DNA of 64,000 nucleotides from assembly GCA_002127285.1 (NCBI GenBank), contig NFUW01000001.1:1128057-1192056 (forward strand). The letters are read 5' to 3'. This document shows, in pieces, positions 828 to 59,974 of this stretch. This stretch comes from Chitinophagaceae bacterium IBVUCB1 (GTDB lineage Bacteria; Bacteroidota; Bacteroidia; Chitinophagales; Chitinophagaceae). The first letter of the stretch is position 1, and each line of letters begins with the position of its first letter. The notes beneath the pieces were generated by a model, which did not search any database, was not told the DNA's origin, and was given only the letters and a program-made list of their open reading frames with translations. The position numbers and the translations under genes were made by a program.

Positions 828-2042
828 TCAATTGCAATCAGTCGCTATACCCGTACTGTTAAAAAACGCAAGGTATTTTTGTAAGAATACAGTCCTGTCA
901 AAGTGCTGACGGGCATAGTTATGTGCTGTGGCAGACAAATTATGTAATAACCCGTTATCATTACATAACATGGTAATGTATGAAACAGCTTGTGCTACAA
1001 CCCCTTCCTCATCTTCTGGTTTTTCTATAAGCAGCGCGTTTTGTTGATGGGTAAGGTGTGTTTTATTACCTTCCAGTGCCGTTACGACTGGCAGGCAGCC
1101 GTTTGCCATACCTTCTTTTATTATCATAGGAAAACCCTCGTAAGCAGATGTCATCAGTATGATGTGGCAATCCTGATAGAGGGCGTACATTTTTTCTTTT
1201 TCGCTTATTTCGCCATGCAGCACGGCGTTTTGCTTTACAAGCGGGCTTAGCTCATCCTGCATGGTACCTGCAAAATGAAATGATATAGGTAATTTTTGTT
1301 CAATGCATTTTTCTGCAATAGCATTCAGCAGGTATATGCGTTTTTGCGGGCCACCCCTGCCGGCATACAGCACTTTCAGCGGCAAACTGTAATCTTTTTT
1401 ACCAAATGGAACAAAACTAACCCCCGGCTCTATAAACAATATCCTATCTGTATATTTACTATCAATACCGTACGAAATATATTGATTTTTAATATTGCTA
1501 AGGGTAAAAATATCATATACTACTCTGTAATTCAGAAGTTTATGGTTTGCCAACCCAAAGAATTCCATACCGTTTTTGCCATGGGTAAAGTTGTGCAGCA
1601 ATTCGGTTTTCACAACGCTTTTCTTCAGAAAAAACAACATATCATAAAAAAACGTGCTGTTAGAGCTGAAAACATGGCCTTTAGAGTGTCTGTTTATATA
1701 TAAAGAATAATAGTGAACTGTAAATAGCCTGATTAACAGGTTGTCGCACCAAAAATGAATGTCCTTAGAGTGGGTGTTGGCAATGCTGTAAAACTCTTTT
1801 TTCAGGTAGTCGTCTGGCGACGAACGTGTAAAATACACTTGCTTATTAATTTCTGCTACCGACTGCAATATATCAATATGTATTCGCTGAGCCCCGCCTA
1901 TGGCATACCTGTCAAAGAAAAAAAACAGACCTGTTGGGTTTTTGCGTTTGAATAATATAAATGGGAATATGAAAATCAATGCCAGTGGATAAGACATACA
2001 TAGTAATATCCTGAACAATTTGATTTTTGTAAGATTATGCAT
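828..2042 (-). CDS. Glycosyltransferase family 1/GT4
   Basis: GT-B type glycosyltransferase of 404 residues. An N-terminal hydrophobic stretch (about residues 9-31) suggests membrane association. The C-terminal half has the expected signals: KVLYAGRGGPQKR at the start of the donor domain (about 225-237) and the E-x7-E region SAYEGFPMIIKEGMANG (about 299-315), which binds the nucleotide-sugar. The N-terminal part contains DRYAIGGAQRIHIDI, a variant of the glycine-rich acceptor loop. Together with the downstream GT2 gene it implies a polysaccharide or glycolipid locus continuing to the left of the window. Linkage and acceptor are unknown. Confidence 0.85.
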   Translation of the reverse strand: MHNLTKIKLFRILLCMSYPLALIFIFPFILFKRKNPTGLFFFFDRYAIGGAQRIHIDILQSVAEINKQVYFTRSSPDDYLKKEFYSIANTHSKDIHFWCDNLLIRLFTVHYYSLYINRHSKGHVFSSNSTFFYDMLFFLKKSVVKTELLHNFTHGKNGMEFFGLANHKLLNYRVVYDIFTLSNIKNQYISYGIDSKYTDRILFIEPGVSFVPFGKKDYSLPLKVLYAGRGGPQKRIYLLNAIAEKCIEQKLPISFHFAGTMQDELSPLVKQNAVLHGEISEKEKMYALYQDCHIILMTSAYEGFPMIIKEGMANGCLPVVTALEGNKTHLTHQQNALLIEKPEDEEGVVAQAVSYITMLCNDNGLLHNLSATAHNYARQHFDRTVFLQKYLAFFNSTGIATDCN

Positions 2043-3833: not shown

Positions 3834-3937
3834 GCCCCTCCCAGCCTCCCCCAAGGGGAGGAGTGGGAGGCAAAAAAGATATTTGAAACAATAAAAAATT
3901 TAGAACCCTCCCCCATGGGGGGAGATGGAGGGGGCTC
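3834..3937. repeat. Paired-palindrome intercistronic repeat, nuoC-nuoD
   Basis: The whole gap is a repeat element. A palindromic block (3833-3861, core CCTCCCCCAAGGGGAGG) begins at the nuoC stop. A second block (3906-3936, core CCCTCCCCCATGGGGGGAG) ends one base before the nuoD ATG. The outer ends are inverted copies: AGCCCCTCCCAG against AGCCCCCTCCAT read on the other strand. About 45 A/T-rich bases separate the blocks. The same architecture recurs at 5174, 11765, 54701 and 59815. Confidence 0.88.
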
Positions 3938-5173: not shown

Positions 5174-5247
5174 CCCCCTGACCCCCTGAAGGGGGAAAGG
5201 TTTTGAATATAATTTTAAAAAGAAAAGCCCCTTTAGGGGTTTGGGGT
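5174..5247. repeat. Paired-palindrome intercistronic repeat, nuoD-nuoE
   Basis: The 74-base gap between nuoD stop and nuoE ATG holds two C/G palindromes. The left one is CCCCCTGAAGGGGG next to the stop. The right one is GCCCCTTTAGGGG followed by TTTGGGGT, which touches the ATG. Read from opposite strands the two ends align (ACCCCCTGACCCCCTGAAGG and ACCCCAAACCCCTAAAGG), so the element has terminal inverted repeats around an A/T-rich core. Confidence 0.88.
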
Positions 5248-6166: not shown

Positions 6167-6232
6167 CGGCCGACCTCTGAATTGGAGTAAGGCTTAAAAA
6201 ATAAAAAGAAAGTCCCTTTAGGGATTTAGGGT
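6167..6232. repeat. Decayed paired-palindrome repeat before nuoF
   Basis: The right half is clear: AGTCCCTTTAGGGATTTAGGGT touches the nuoF ATG and is a mutated version of the block in front of nuoE and nuoL. The left half next to the previous stop (ACCTCTGAATTGGAG) is only weakly palindromic and looks degraded. Confidence 0.65.
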
Positions 6233-11764: not shown

Positions 11765-11842
11765 ACCCCCTAACCCCCTAAAGGGGGGAAGCAGGGTAAT
11801 AACAATATTTAAAAAAAGAAAGCCCCTTTAGGGGTTTGGGGT
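11765..11842. repeat. Paired-palindrome intercistronic repeat, nuoK-nuoL
   Basis: The best-preserved copy. The left block CCCCCTAACCCCCTAAAGGG follows the nuoK stop directly. The right block GCCCCTTTAGGGGTTTGGGG touches the nuoL ATG after one T. The ends are inverted copies of each other around an A-rich core of about 30 bases. It fills the gap exactly. Confidence 0.9.
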
Positions 11843-25447: not shown

Positions 25448-26437
25448 CTATATCCAGCCTTGGTTGTGCAGGTATTTGGCTATCTGTACGGCATTGGTTG
25501 CTGCGCCTTTTCGCAGGTTGTCGGCTACTATCCAGCAATTCAGGGTATTGGGCTGGCTATAGTCGCGGCGGATGCGTCCCACAAATACCTCGTCTTTGCC
25601 GGCCGCATCAAGCGGCATGGGGTAGGCATTGGCTTTGGGGTTGTCTATCACTACCACACCCGACATATTGCTCAGTATTTCCCTCACATCGTTTTCTTCA
25701 AAATCCTTATGAAACTCAATATTCACGCTCTCGCTATGCCCGCCCGTTACGGGTACACGTACGGTGGTAGCCGTTACTTTTATGCTGTCGTCGCCCATTA
25801 TCTTGCAGGTTTCCAGCACCATTTTCATTTCTTCCTTGGTATAGCCATTATCCTGAAACACGTCTATATGCGGCAGTACGTTCATATCTATACGGTGGGG
25901 GTACACACCAAATCCATCGCCGCCTGCCCGCTGGTTTTCCATTTCCTTTACCGCCTTCTGCCCTGTACCGCTTACACTTTGGTATGTGCTTACAACCACG
26001 CGTTTGATGCCGTATGTATCGTGCAGGGGTTTTAATACCATTACCATTTGTATGGTGCTGCAGTTGGGGTTGGCTATTATCAGGTCATCTTTTGTCAGTA
26101 CGTTGCCGTTTACCTCGGGTACTACCAGCTTTTTGGTAGGGTCCATGCGCCAAGCCGACGAGTTATCTACCACATAACAACCCACCTCTGCAAATTTTGG
26201 TGCCAGTTCCAGCGATGTGCTGCCGCCTGCCGAGAAGATAGCCAGTTGCGGCTTCATGCTGATGGCGGTTTCCGCATTCACTACGCTGTAACTTTTGCCC
26301 TTGTACTGTACCTGCATACCTACCGACTTTTCAGAAGCCACCGGTATCAGTTCAGTCAATGGAAAGTTTCTTTCTTCAAGAATCTGCAACATGGTGCTGC
26401 CAACCAGCCCTGTTGCGCCTACTACAGCTACGCGCAT
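25448..26437 (-). CDS. asd: Aspartate-semialdehyde dehydrogenase
   Basis: Reduces aspartyl phosphate to aspartate semialdehyde with NADPH, the branch point to lysine/diaminopimelate, threonine and methionine. 329 residues. The NADP-binding VVGATGLVGSTML opens the protein. The catalytic cysteine is C126 in NPNCSTIQM, and VPVTGGHSESVNIEF carries the substrate-binding histidine and serine region. It is a single gene with its own -7 box; a palindromic repeat block sits upstream of the promoter. Confidence 0.96.
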   Translation of the reverse strand: MRVAVVGATGLVGSTMLQILEERNFPLTELIPVASEKSVGMQVQYKGKSYSVVNAETAISMKPQLAIFSAGGSTSLELAPKFAEVGCYVVDNSSAWRMDPTKKLVVPEVNGNVLTKDDLIIANPNCSTIQMVMVLKPLHDTYGIKRVVVSTYQSVSGTGQKAVKEMENQRAGGDGFGVYPHRIDMNVLPHIDVFQDNGYTKEEMKMVLETCKIMGDDSIKVTATTVRVPVTGGHSESVNIEFHKDFEENDVREILSNMSGVVVIDNPKANAYPMPLDAAGKDEVFVGRIRRDYSQPNTLNCWIVADNLRKGAATNAVQIAKYLHNQGWI

Positions 26438-26459
26438 TGTATCAAAAATTTACGGTTTG

Positions 26460-26467
26460 CAAAGATA
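26460..26467 (-). promoter_or_regulatory. -7 box for asd
   Basis: TATCTTTG on the minus strand, 22 bases before the asd ATG. A TTG is present but only 15 bases away, shorter than usual. Confidence 0.5.
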
Positions 26468-26476
26468 ATAGATTTG

Positions 26477-26511
26477 CCTCCCCAAACCCCTCCCAAAGAG
26501 GGGCTTTTTTC
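26477..26511. repeat. Single palindromic block upstream of asd
   Basis: CCTCCCCAAACCCCTCCCAAAGAGGGGCTTTTTT is one half of the paired-palindrome repeat family (compare the block before nuoL). No partner block is seen nearby. Confidence 0.7.
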
Positions 26512-26631
26512 ATTTTGAGTGCTGTCAGGAGTTTCTTGCCGACAGAGACAACCAAGTACAAGCTTTACAGCGCTTGAATGTAATGATAGATAGCCTGTTG
26601 ATATTGTGTATATTTATACAAATAGATAAAT

Positions 26632-26772
26632 ATGACCATCTGCATGCTGCTGGCTGCTAATGCAAAGATGATAGCCTTATATGCTTTCCCCGTACTGATT
26701 TTCGCTGCCACCTTTCTTTTAGGACGTTTCCTGAAAAACAAGCGCGAAAAAGAGGATAAGAAAGAGAACTGA
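26632..26772 (+). CDS. Small single-span membrane protein, 46 residues
   Basis: Too short for usual gene calling. ATG at 26632 opens MTICMLLAANAKMIALYAFP, followed by a hydrophobic segment VLIFAATFLLGRFL and a strongly charged tail (KNKREKEDKKEN) before the TGA. The composition, one helix of about 25-28 hydrophobic residues plus a basic/acidic cytoplasmic tail, is that of a small integral membrane protein. No family is recognised. It stands alone between asd and the repeat island. Confidence 0.5.
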   Translation: MTICMLLAANAKMIALYAFPVLIFAATFLLGRFLKNKREKEDKKEN

Positions 26773-27229
26773 TTTTAGCGTAACGGGATTTTTCCTTTTG
26801 TTGCAATTCATGAGGTTTTGTGAAAAACGCAACAAAACGCAACAAATTAATTTTCGAGCATACTGATAACTGATTTGCTAAACATGGGTTTTTTCAAAGA
26901 CCTTTTACTATAGCAAATATACACAATTTTTATCGTATTATAATGTAATTATTTTGCTGCTAAGGCGAAAACCTTGCTTGGGTACTAATGCTTTGGCAGA
27001 TGCTTCACTGCGTTCTGCATGACAGGTGGGATTTGAGGTAGTAATAGATTTTGCTCGCGTGTTCACATCCTTCTGATGATGCTGTACGCAGCATCGGTCT
27101 CCCTTCAAAGGGAGAATTTATTTAGCGGAATTCCTCCTTTGAAGGAGGTGTCCGCAAGGACGGAGGATGTGTACATGTTATGTTTAGCATAGCCTCTGAC
27201 TACGCTATTACGGTTGCAAATCTCCTGAT
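26773..27229. other. Gene-free stretch: repeat island
   Basis: No credible gene. From left to right it holds CGCAACAAAA/CGCAACAAAT direct repeats (near 26828-26848), an A/T-rich part, a GATGCTTCACTGCGTTCTGCATGACA-like block at about 26998-27024 (it resembles a motif commonly scattered in Bacteroidota genomes), the 108-base multi-hairpin element at 27064, and the left arm of the inverted repeat at 27190. Confidence 0.6.
27064..27171. repeat. 108-base element of nested hairpins with inverted ends
   Basis: The outer ends CACATCC (27064) and GGATGTG (27165) are inverted. Inside are four hairpins: GATGCTG-TACG-CAGCATC, CTCCCTT-CA-AAGGGAG, CCTCCTT-TG-AAGGAGG and GTCC-GCAA-GGAC, the last with a GNRA-type loop. 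This looks like a non-autonomous repeat (MITE-like) or a structured RNA. No transposase is nearby. Confidence 0.7.
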
Positions 27230-27332
27230 TTGCGTAGTGTATTACATACTCGTTTTATAATAGTATCTTTTACTTTATACTCATTCGCAAATCGGGAGAT
27301 TTGCTGCCGGTACAACGTAGTCAGAGACTACG
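27190..27332. repeat. Inverted repeat built from small palindromes (REP-like)
   Basis: Left arm 27190-27234 and right arm 27286-27332 are imperfect inverted copies. Each arm contains two smaller palindromes: GCAAATC-TCCT-GATTTGC (right copy with CGGGA loop) and CGTAGTCAGAGACTACG (27316-27332; partly decayed on the left). About 50 A/T-rich bases lie between. The GTAG at the foot of a hairpin recalls REP elements moved by RAYT transposases, but none is present here. Confidence 0.75.
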
Positions 27333-27658
27333 CCGAACAGGGCAGCTACATCTGTCCGCAACCGAGCAAGGTAACAAGCAACCCTATCAGGCTGAAGATA
27401 AGTACTGGCATCAAAAATGCTGCATTCAACAAACTGAAAGTATATCCCAACCCTGCTAATGACAGGTTAATGATAGAGGGCTTGCAAGGCAGCAATCATA
27501 TCAGGCTGACAGATGCCATTGGCAGGGTTGTATATCAATCAACTACAAAAGAAGCGAAGCATATTATAGACATGCAACACTTTGCTACTGGCAACTATGT
27601 GCTGGAGATAACGGATGCGCAGGGCAATGCCATGAGTGTGAAAGTGGGGAAAGAGTAG
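27230..27658 (+). pseudogene. Remnant of a T9SS cargo gene (C-terminal sorting domain only)
   Basis: The frame ends with a clear T9SS type A sorting domain: KVYPNPANDRLMIEGLQG, IRLTDAIGRVVYQS, FATGNYVLEITDAQGNAMSV. Upstream of about residue 50 the translation runs through the right arm of the inverted repeat, and the only start available is a TTG inside that repeat. No signal peptide or cargo domain exists. The repeat apparently replaced or separated the 5' part. The stop lies four bases from the convergent M2 gene. Confidence 0.72.
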
Positions 27659-44099: not shown

Positions 44100-44137
44100 A
44101 TCAAATATAGAAATAGTTTCCCTTTAGGGGGCGGCAA
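44100..44137. repeat. Palindromic block fragment between dtd and tadA
   Basis: TTTCCCTTTAGGGGGCGGC just before the tadA start on the minus strand resembles one decayed half of the paired-palindrome family. A TATATTTG box overlaps its end. Confidence 0.45.
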
Positions 44138-54700: not shown

Positions 54701-54789
54701 AAACCCCCTATCCCCTACATGGGGAACTTGTTTTTAAAAGTTAAAGAATAATGTTGTTTTCATAATTAAGCCCCTTCAGGGGTTTGGGC
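54701..54789. repeat. Paired-palindrome intercistronic repeat, scoA-scoB
   Basis: On the minus strand GCCCAAACCCCTGAAGGGGC follows the scoA stop, and CCCCATGTAGGGGATAGGGG with GTTT touches the scoB ATG. The ends are inverted copies, as in the nuo operon. The element fills the gap. Confidence 0.88.
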
Positions 54790-59814: not shown

Positions 59815-59974
59815 ATAGCCCCTCCCTGCCTCCCCCAAGGGGAGGTGCTTGTATTTTGTAAATAGTAAAATCTCTCACGAATATAAAGATACATGTAGGT
59901 GGTTTTTATTCACACTCTATCCCCTATACTATTTTATTTTATACCCTCCCCTTGGGGGAGGTTTGGGTGGGGCT
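59815..59974. repeat. Paired-palindrome repeat between divergent PPTase and dcd genes
   Basis: Terminal inverted repeats: AGCCCCTCCCTGCCTCCCCC on the left and AGCCCCACCCAAACCTCCCC read from the right, each with CCTCCCCCAAGGGGAGG. About 100 A/T-rich bases lie between. Both ends sit next to a start codon. The right palindrome supplies the TTG of the dcd promoter. Confidence 0.88.

Follow-up and report, generated by a model that had tools for sequence, protein, structure and literature searches.

The window, by which we mean the whole stretch of 64,000 nucleotides analysed, comes from the 3.41 Mb genome of Chitinophagaceae bacterium IBVUCB1 (labelled G000; other G numbers denote the related or other genomes compared with it). 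Genes within it were called from a listing of open reading frames (ORFs) together with a home-made caller, and take their names from Pfam; three of the filled gaps described here thereby fall in an operon for complex I, between the genes for the 30-kDa and 49-kDa subunits, the 49-kDa subunit and the thioredoxin-like 2Fe-2S protein, and chains 4L and 5. The Nuo letters used below (NuoC, NuoD, NuoE, NuoF, NuoK and NuoL) are the usual ones for the Pfam-named complex I genes. The features are as follows:

3834..3937, plus strand: paired element of the CTCCC type, hairpins at 3845-3861 and 3910-3921; from the TAA of NuoC to the ATG of NuoD.
5174..5247, plus strand: paired element of the ACCCC type, hairpins at 5182-5195 and 5228-5239; from the TAA of NuoD to the ATG of NuoE.
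6167..6232, plus strand: half-decayed element, the right block alone recognisable (6209-6231); from the TAA of a DUF4440 gene to the ATG of NuoF.
11765..11842, plus strand: paired element of the ACCCC type, hairpins at 11774-11787 and 11823-11834; from the TAA of NuoK to the ATG of NuoL.
26477..26511, no strand assigned: single C/G block within a 792-nt gap, at least 39 nt from any codon edge.
44100..44137, no strand assigned: possible one-block remnant, weak and judged by eye, adjoining a gene start.
54701..54789, minus strand: paired element of the ACCCC type, hairpins at 54711-54725 and 54771-54782; stop to start between two CoA-transferase subunits.
59815..59974, minus strand: paired element of the CTCCC type, hairpins at 59829-59845 and 59945-59961; upstream of a phosphopantetheinyl-transferase-like gene.

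Reading along the sequence of a gap-filling element, we see a C-tagged hairpin, then an A/T-rich core and then an inverted partner block. The elements at 3834-3937, 5174-5247, 11765-11842 and 54701-54789 start at the base after a TAA and finish at the base preceding an ATG, so that the original prediction, in which five gaps were each taken to be a single element reaching up to the ATG, holds for these four. The fifth, 59815-59974, meets a codon edge at the left end alone, where a minus-strand gene has its ATG 3 nt away; on the right, 13 nt separate it from a weak ORF that starts on the plus strand. It is therefore not a stop-to-start filler. Among the blocks put forward as decayed or single, that at 6167-6232 is indeed a half element, its surviving right block ending at the ATG and showing a change on one side that is matched on the other (TCCC..GGGA); 26477-26511 is an isolated block that adjoins no codon edge, and 44100-44137 is doubtful, with no report from a sequence model of the ACCCC type—a model that is equally silent on the block at 26477 and on both pairs of the CTCCC type (3834 and 59815). 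The 792-nt gap (window positions 26437-27658) also holds several imperfect inverted repeats, with 65-nt arms at 27170 and 27286, as well as a GTAGTCAGAG-like motif seen too near a Y1_Tnp gene of G009 (L175); it is perhaps a REP or transposase relic.

The block core, CCCCTNAAGGGG, has 44 matches in G000 (22 + 22), as against none for a reversed control pattern, and 41 of the 44 tag ends lie outside predicted genes. Measuring from each tag end to the codon edge on its outer side, and keeping in the denominator of 44 the three ends inside predicted genes and the one without an assignable edge, we see 14 placed 0-5 nt after a stop codon, nine no more than 5 nt from a start codon and four with a stop codon inside the block; the remaining 13 are 6-257 nt away, one of them separated by 2 nt from a tRNA-Trp gene, at its 3' end. 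Under the single rule of 0-5 nt, contact with a stop or a start is seen for 23 of the 44 ends, compared with 3.8% of 16,800 random draws of intergenic positions (1.7% for stops, 2.1% for starts; p ~2e-21). The exact 20-nt right block has at least 139 matches in other Bacteroidota, some of them tandem or related copies (seven in L254) and hence not independent, so that p values calculated for the phylum come out too small; among the 139 listed, 17 are within 5 nt of a start and 20 within 5 nt of a stop, against 1.5% for each of 7,140 control positions, an 8- to 10-fold preference. Each of the 80 titles listed for matches to the shared block is from Bacteroidota. The preference for codon edges, on which the original prediction had staked its case, is thus present both in G000 and among the listed copies from the phylum, and the placement of the blocks at gene borders is real and strong. 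A built-in ATG/TAA target motif was considered and rejected: 94 of the 139 listed copies lie off gene edges, and their flanks are without ATG enrichment (ATG follows in 3.2%, against a background of 5.8%), the excess of TTA being merely twofold. With ATG so seldom following these off-edge copies, it is the codons that the elements fit, and no ATG motif.

A sub-family with the tag CCCCTAAAT (L196, L209, L210 and L212, in G000) sits mostly 12-23 nt before starts or deep in gaps, one copy (L179) touching a stop; at L211 (G000:C2:1437000-1442500), three block ends fall within predicted genes and are possibly in-frame insertions. Our own-genome sample stretches L010, L011, L012, L014, L018, L024 and L029 were picked for their search matches, not blind.

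Comparison of orthologous gaps for presence or absence, as the original prediction had proposed, finds the same junctions empty, filled or holding another element type across close relatives. At NuoK|NuoL there is a 9-bp gap of one sequence in G002, G006 and G012 and of another in G010 and G011; a C/G pair in G000, G005 (its left block decayed) and G008; and a different, ORF-bearing filler in G004, where the ORF matches PF05635, and in G014, which looks similar. At NuoC|NuoD a native leader of ~30 nt ending in AATTGACTTAAGACTA is common to G002, G006, G012 and partly G007, with no trace of it wherever an element sits; that element is of the CTCCC type in G000 and G005 and of the ACCCC type in G004 and G008. 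In the gene tree, G008 is nested in the native-gap group, on a branch with G002 and G006 (support 0.85). The CoA-transferase junction is an empty 2-bp gap in G002, G004, G006 and G012; in G005 the upstream protein continues into the block and terminates there, and in G000, G008 and G010 it is about one codon shorter than in the empty relatives. The element flanks are A/T-rich, the base following the tag is T or C, and no target duplication was recognised. Nowhere in the relatives compared did we see a clean insertion with both flanks intact: the native gaps of 9-30 nt are gone, so that simple insertion does not explain the elements, and with orthologous gaps empty or carrying other fillers we conclude that the elements come, go and replace gaps, rather than split them. 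Of the two origins originally offered for the exact fit—targeted insertion at gene borders, or a role in translation or mRNA processing—the border fit itself is borne out, and the gain, loss and exchange of elements among orthologous gaps favours mobile DNA.

ORFs matching PF05635 (23S rRNA intervening-sequence protein) were seen in 15 of 20 genomes (L120-L149, e.g. L126, L136, L142 and L125), often at co-directional junctions between complementary short-repeat arms that contain a stop codon, the arms being judged by eye and varying in sequence from locus to locus. Such fillers seem to make up another class of element that occupies junctions, unrelated to the first. They occur at junctions that hold C/G elements elsewhere: NuoK|NuoL of G004 (L148), the CoA-transferase junction of G007 (L141) and G009 (L137) and, by resemblance, G014. 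As a given junction carries C/G elements or PF05635 fillers according to species, some operon junctions appear to be hot spots for different elements.

The link to DUF559, which the original prediction missed, is in our view the key to the elements. DUF559 (PF04480) is a Pfam family of unknown function. Outward-tagged pairs of ACCCC-type blocks, 150-1800 bp apart, were found at 15 loci, five of which enclose a DUF559 ORF (Pfam PF04480, E 1.1e-26 to 2.6e-33; L228 and L266, both among the five and from related species, appear to represent a single insertion); at the remaining ten the blocks bound host genes, short ORFs or nothing. A PF04480 search found the family in 18 of 29 genomes, including 14 of 15 from the same genus as G000; matches in G003 and G011, which have 13 and 25 cores of the CCCCTNAAGGGG type, are weak and partial only. 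From 30 DUF559 loci (31 rows, one of which had no locus) we set aside L369, at a contig end, and the weak or partial L370, L371, L372, L380 and L384, leaving 24 for scoring, four of which (L355, L361, L366 and L383) gave no intact ORF. All 24 have a polypyrimidine-armed hairpin within ~300 bp, by a detector that accepts several block families, and half of them (12 of 24) have one on both sides, the other half passing on one side only. The same test gave 0/27 for PF05635 and 1/19 for Y1_Tnp (27 of 30 and 19 of 29 fetched loci being long enough to score) and, for control genes of 200-1500 bp, 30/314 in G000 on any side (1/314 on both), 0/50 in G013 and 2/62 in G004; Fisher p values for DUF559 versus the controls run from 4e-22 to 3e-11.

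Block type also follows the protein. DUF559 proteins with ACCCC ends, six in all and ranging from Marinilabiliaceae to Chitinophagaceae, form one group (support 83/89), and on the DUF559 tree block type changes once, compared with 5.4 changes when shuffled (0 of 500 shuffles as low). The pattern CTCCTCCT-N6-AGGAGGAG defines a second family of blocks, present in six of the 29 genomes; all six have a DUF559 locus, and five have this block beside it, some of the blocks counted being those at the DUF559 loci themselves; G000, G013, G031 and G034 have a DUF559 of the CTCC-type clade, yet no exact CTCCTCC-N6 block. At the junction upstream of urocanase (Urocanase_N), where the upstream gene is the same in G010 and G000 by alignment (it has no Pfam name), we see the DUF559 form in G010, ending in two right blocks, and a short pair of 91 nt in G000. 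In G008 a NuoJ-like frame (Oxidored_q3) closes at a TAA in the left-block loop and the DUF559 frame at a TAG in the right block; in G010 and G005 the DUF559 element is read through in frame within a Radical_SAM-TRAM protein, presumably MiaB-like. Saying this, the PF04480 search found no DUF559 in three genomes with blocks, G004 (14 cores), G015 (5) and G016 (2). The sole copy in G000, L362, adjoins a CTCC-type block, leaving the ACCCC copies of that genome without a matching nuclease in the same genome, and G007 has six DUF559 rows and no CCCCTNAAGGGG, a pattern that fits the link only if the block families are separate. In viral contigs, three stretches matched a pattern and none was confirmed as DUF559.

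A profile of four DUF559 sequences matches 3hrl, an endonuclease-like protein (E 1.3e-20), and an AlphaFold model (mean pLDDT 71.7) returns the same entry first in Foldseek (TM 0.61, E 7e-3, weak), followed by the catalytic domain of homing endonuclease I-Bth0305I (probability 0.97, E 0.2, weak); the profile and fold matches both rest on the four-sequence alignment. An intein-associated DUF559 gene is assigned to the EDxHD homing endonuclease family in part of PMC9403480, and a DUF559 domain in a Caulobacter Vsr-like protein is mentioned in part of PMC12907096. By these comparisons the element proteins have a PF04480 domain with a predicted nuclease fold, of the Vsr-like/EDxHD homing-nuclease kind; cleavage by them is putative.

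Could the elements instead be functional mRNA structures, immobile cis elements under selection to couple translation or to process or stabilise operon transcripts? Folding predictions for three of the four window elements have left and right block paired with each other and bring stop and start to the foot of the stem (z against shuffles of -4.15 for 5174-5247, -3.07 for 3834-3937 and -2.18 for 11765-11842), and right blocks reach the ATG in the orthologous gaps of several species. The fourth fold, 54701-54789, is no better than shuffles (z -0.78, 45 of 200 equally good). In an alignment that admits weak matches (E values as high as 5) and contains some hairpins once per strand, the outer stem pairs have changes on both sides in 16 cells versus 7.9 shuffled (1 of 500), the two outer pairs varying on both sides and the four inner pairs hardly at all; the outermost pair is unpaired in 37 of 81 rows, and partners slid by -2 give a covariation score of 0.083, above the 0.072 of the true pairing. 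Selection on stem structure, as originally suggested, is thus modestly supported by the alignment, through the outer pairs, with the near-invariant inner pairs and the higher slid control weighing against it. A mRNA role sits poorly, moreover, with close relatives that have short native gaps and no element at the same junctions, with copies that have no coupled start (2 nt from the tRNA-Trp gene, and in convergent gaps), and with block families that go with DUF559 genes; overall we consider it unlikely. The idea that co-directional gaps in general have closing stems was considered and rejected: seven of 146 gaps sampled in G000 have z < -3, five of these being C/G elements, and small samples from relatives gave 1/16, 1/21, 0/19 and 0/22.

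Exchange of junction alleles between species by homologous recombination, the elements being old and each gap carried along with its flanking genes, draws on the first 60 bp of NuoL, which group by gap state and not by species: G008 there has an identity of 0.77 with G002 but 0.95-0.97 beyond, and of 0.92 with G000, then 0.77 in the next stretch. This hints, from sequence identity, at recombination near the NuoK|NuoL junction. At NuoC|NuoD, however, the NuoD start of G008 is like that of G002 (0.98 over 60 bp) despite a different gap, and the upstream flank of G008 is undiscriminating (0.85 to G002, 0.82 to G004 and 0.87 to G000 in an ungapped comparison); as recombination also leaves the multicopy blocks and the DUF559 link unexplained, we hold it to be improbable. 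Slightly less probable again is that these are ordinary REP/REPIN repeats moved by a Y1 transposase (RAYT or IS200-type). An inverted palindrome pair with outward tags does resemble the REP dimers described in part of PMC3733652, RAYTs with atypical repeats are reported from Bacteroidetes in part of PMC6006769 (subclass 2.6), and one Y1_Tnp gene of G000 (L009) sits between C/G blocks, so that a RAYT at first looked like the driver; that candidate was dropped on finding that the neighbouring repeats and the orthologs of this gene do not fit. The gene has repeats of its own, its ortholog in G007 (L151) has no C/G blocks and that in G004 (L152) one; the polypyrimidine hairpin lies near just one of the 19 scored Y1 loci, five genomes with block cores (G001, G002, G005, G006 and G011) gave no Y1 match, and there is no GTAG or CGTC tag. 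The reading as intrinsic transcription terminators or chance palindromes can lean on GC-rich hairpins after stops being common in any genome, but the ends touch start codons, the exact core occurs 44 times against 0 for its control, and other terminator-like hairpins of the same sample begin ~4-39 nt after the stop (by eye); copy number and the pairing of the blocks refute it, leaving it next to no probability.

As to L009 itself (G000:C2:1015636-1018980), its Y1_Tnp gene (1396-2007, minus strand) stands among its own palindromes (GTCCCTACGGGAC, CAGTCCTACGGACTG), and a Y1_Tnp gene is found at the equivalent place in G004 and G007. The gene just downstream of it in L009 is one that we take to be panB-like. 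The motif YIANQQEHH of the L009 protein resembles subclass 1.2, as given in part of PMC6006769.

We therefore favour, with a probability of roughly 0.6, the reading of the C/G pairs as termini of Bacteroidota mobile elements with DUF559 and, for the most part, as copies of these that have lost their interior (MITE-like); the best explanation of the family is that its long form carries one gene, for a DUF559 endonuclease of the Vsr-like/EDxHD kind. As would be anticipated of MITE-like copies, ends are shared with a gene-bearing long form (the six ACCCC-ended DUF559 loci, and the long and short forms at one junction) and relatives have empty sites, though with the gap replaced rather than split; a matching autonomous copy in the same genome was not found in G000, and G004 is without DUF559. 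In the mechanism that we propose, the DUF559 nuclease would open or nick DNA, either at the target junction or at its own hairpin ends, and repair would then copy the element in, replacing the gap. Copying might proceed in cis or, for short copies, in trans; short pairs may instead be relics. Short-patch illegitimate recombination at TAA/ATG microhomology is a conceivable route. Copies would persist mainly at gene borders, where stop codons within the blocks (ACCCCCTAA, CCCCTAAAGGGG) could close the upstream gene cleanly and where the two blocks, able to pair, could keep stop and start close together at the stem foot and so favour survival; rare copies within genes would survive if read through in frame. 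Codon-edge placement may, then, stem from survival after insertion.

A bolder version, which we regard as tentative and distinctly less probable than the reading just given, is of a phylum-wide mobile DNA for which one small Vsr-like (DUF559) nuclease and hairpin ends suffice to move, and whose insertion replaces the whole stretch from stop to start. If true, this would be a nuclease-only analogue of RAYT-REPIN that is specific for gene borders and possibly works on nicked or single-stranded DNA where transcribed genes meet; intergenic regions of core operons, complex I among them, would now be made of its short copies. The link between block family and nuclease gives DUF559 genes a likely role, as mobile-element nucleases, and a Bacteroidota-wide repeat a likely origin. 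The elements are also a testable case of mobile DNA settling between coupled genes with neither broken, and allow one to ask how REP-like repeats persist by means of a second, unrelated nuclease.

No description of the C/G block family was found in the open-access literature, as covered mostly by titles and abstract openings; among open-access papers naming DUF559, no title or abstract opening describes a palindromic-ended element, nor do the parts of PMC9403480 and PMC12907096 consulted. Several known systems are nevertheless comparable. The TAACTGA heptamer repeats of Beggiatoaceae, Cyanobacteria and some Bacteroidetes, in the portion of PMC4679880 consulted, often lie just before starts, some overlapping stops, and provide stops in all frames; unlike the C/G elements they are direct tandem repeats, and appear in that portion without a palindromic pair or nuclease gene. 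In the 23S rRNA intervening sequence of Coxiella, with its S23/IVP protein, an ORF is enclosed by complementary arms (PMC4990558, in part), as is the case here, and PF05635 ORFs also occupy gene junctions in the relatives; both the protein family and the arms are, however, different. An S23/IVP (PF05635) origin was entertained on account of the striking heptamer-like arms and four-helix-bundle ORF, and dropped with C/G hairpins near none of the 27 scored PF05635 loci. Closer are the EDxHD/Vsr-like homing endonucleases, exemplified by I-Bth0305I, with a related predicted nuclease fold, insertion into conserved genes and junctions, and in-frame copies inside a host gene (L358 and L360); set against this, the elements here end in polypyrimidine palindromes and have numerous short copies without coding capacity, with no intron or intein noticed.

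It is with REPIN/RAYT that the likeness goes furthest: an inverted pair of palindromic blocks, an A/T-rich core, a high number of mostly extragenic copies, and a long form that bears a nuclease. There, the nuclease is a Y1 HUH transposase and here DUF559 (Vsr-like); a cognate Y1 gene flanked by the same repeat was not found, the Y1 loci carrying other repeats. The tag, too, is C-rich instead of GTAG/CGTC, the consensus of the aligned blocks being without a GTAG/GTGG or CGTC tetranucleotide at its foot and reading A/G-CCCC(C)-(T)AA, and the elements fit stop and start codons. By analogy, the C/G elements would work in the manner of REPIN, as paired palindromes with one nuclease gene, but built on a homing-endonuclease-like protein.
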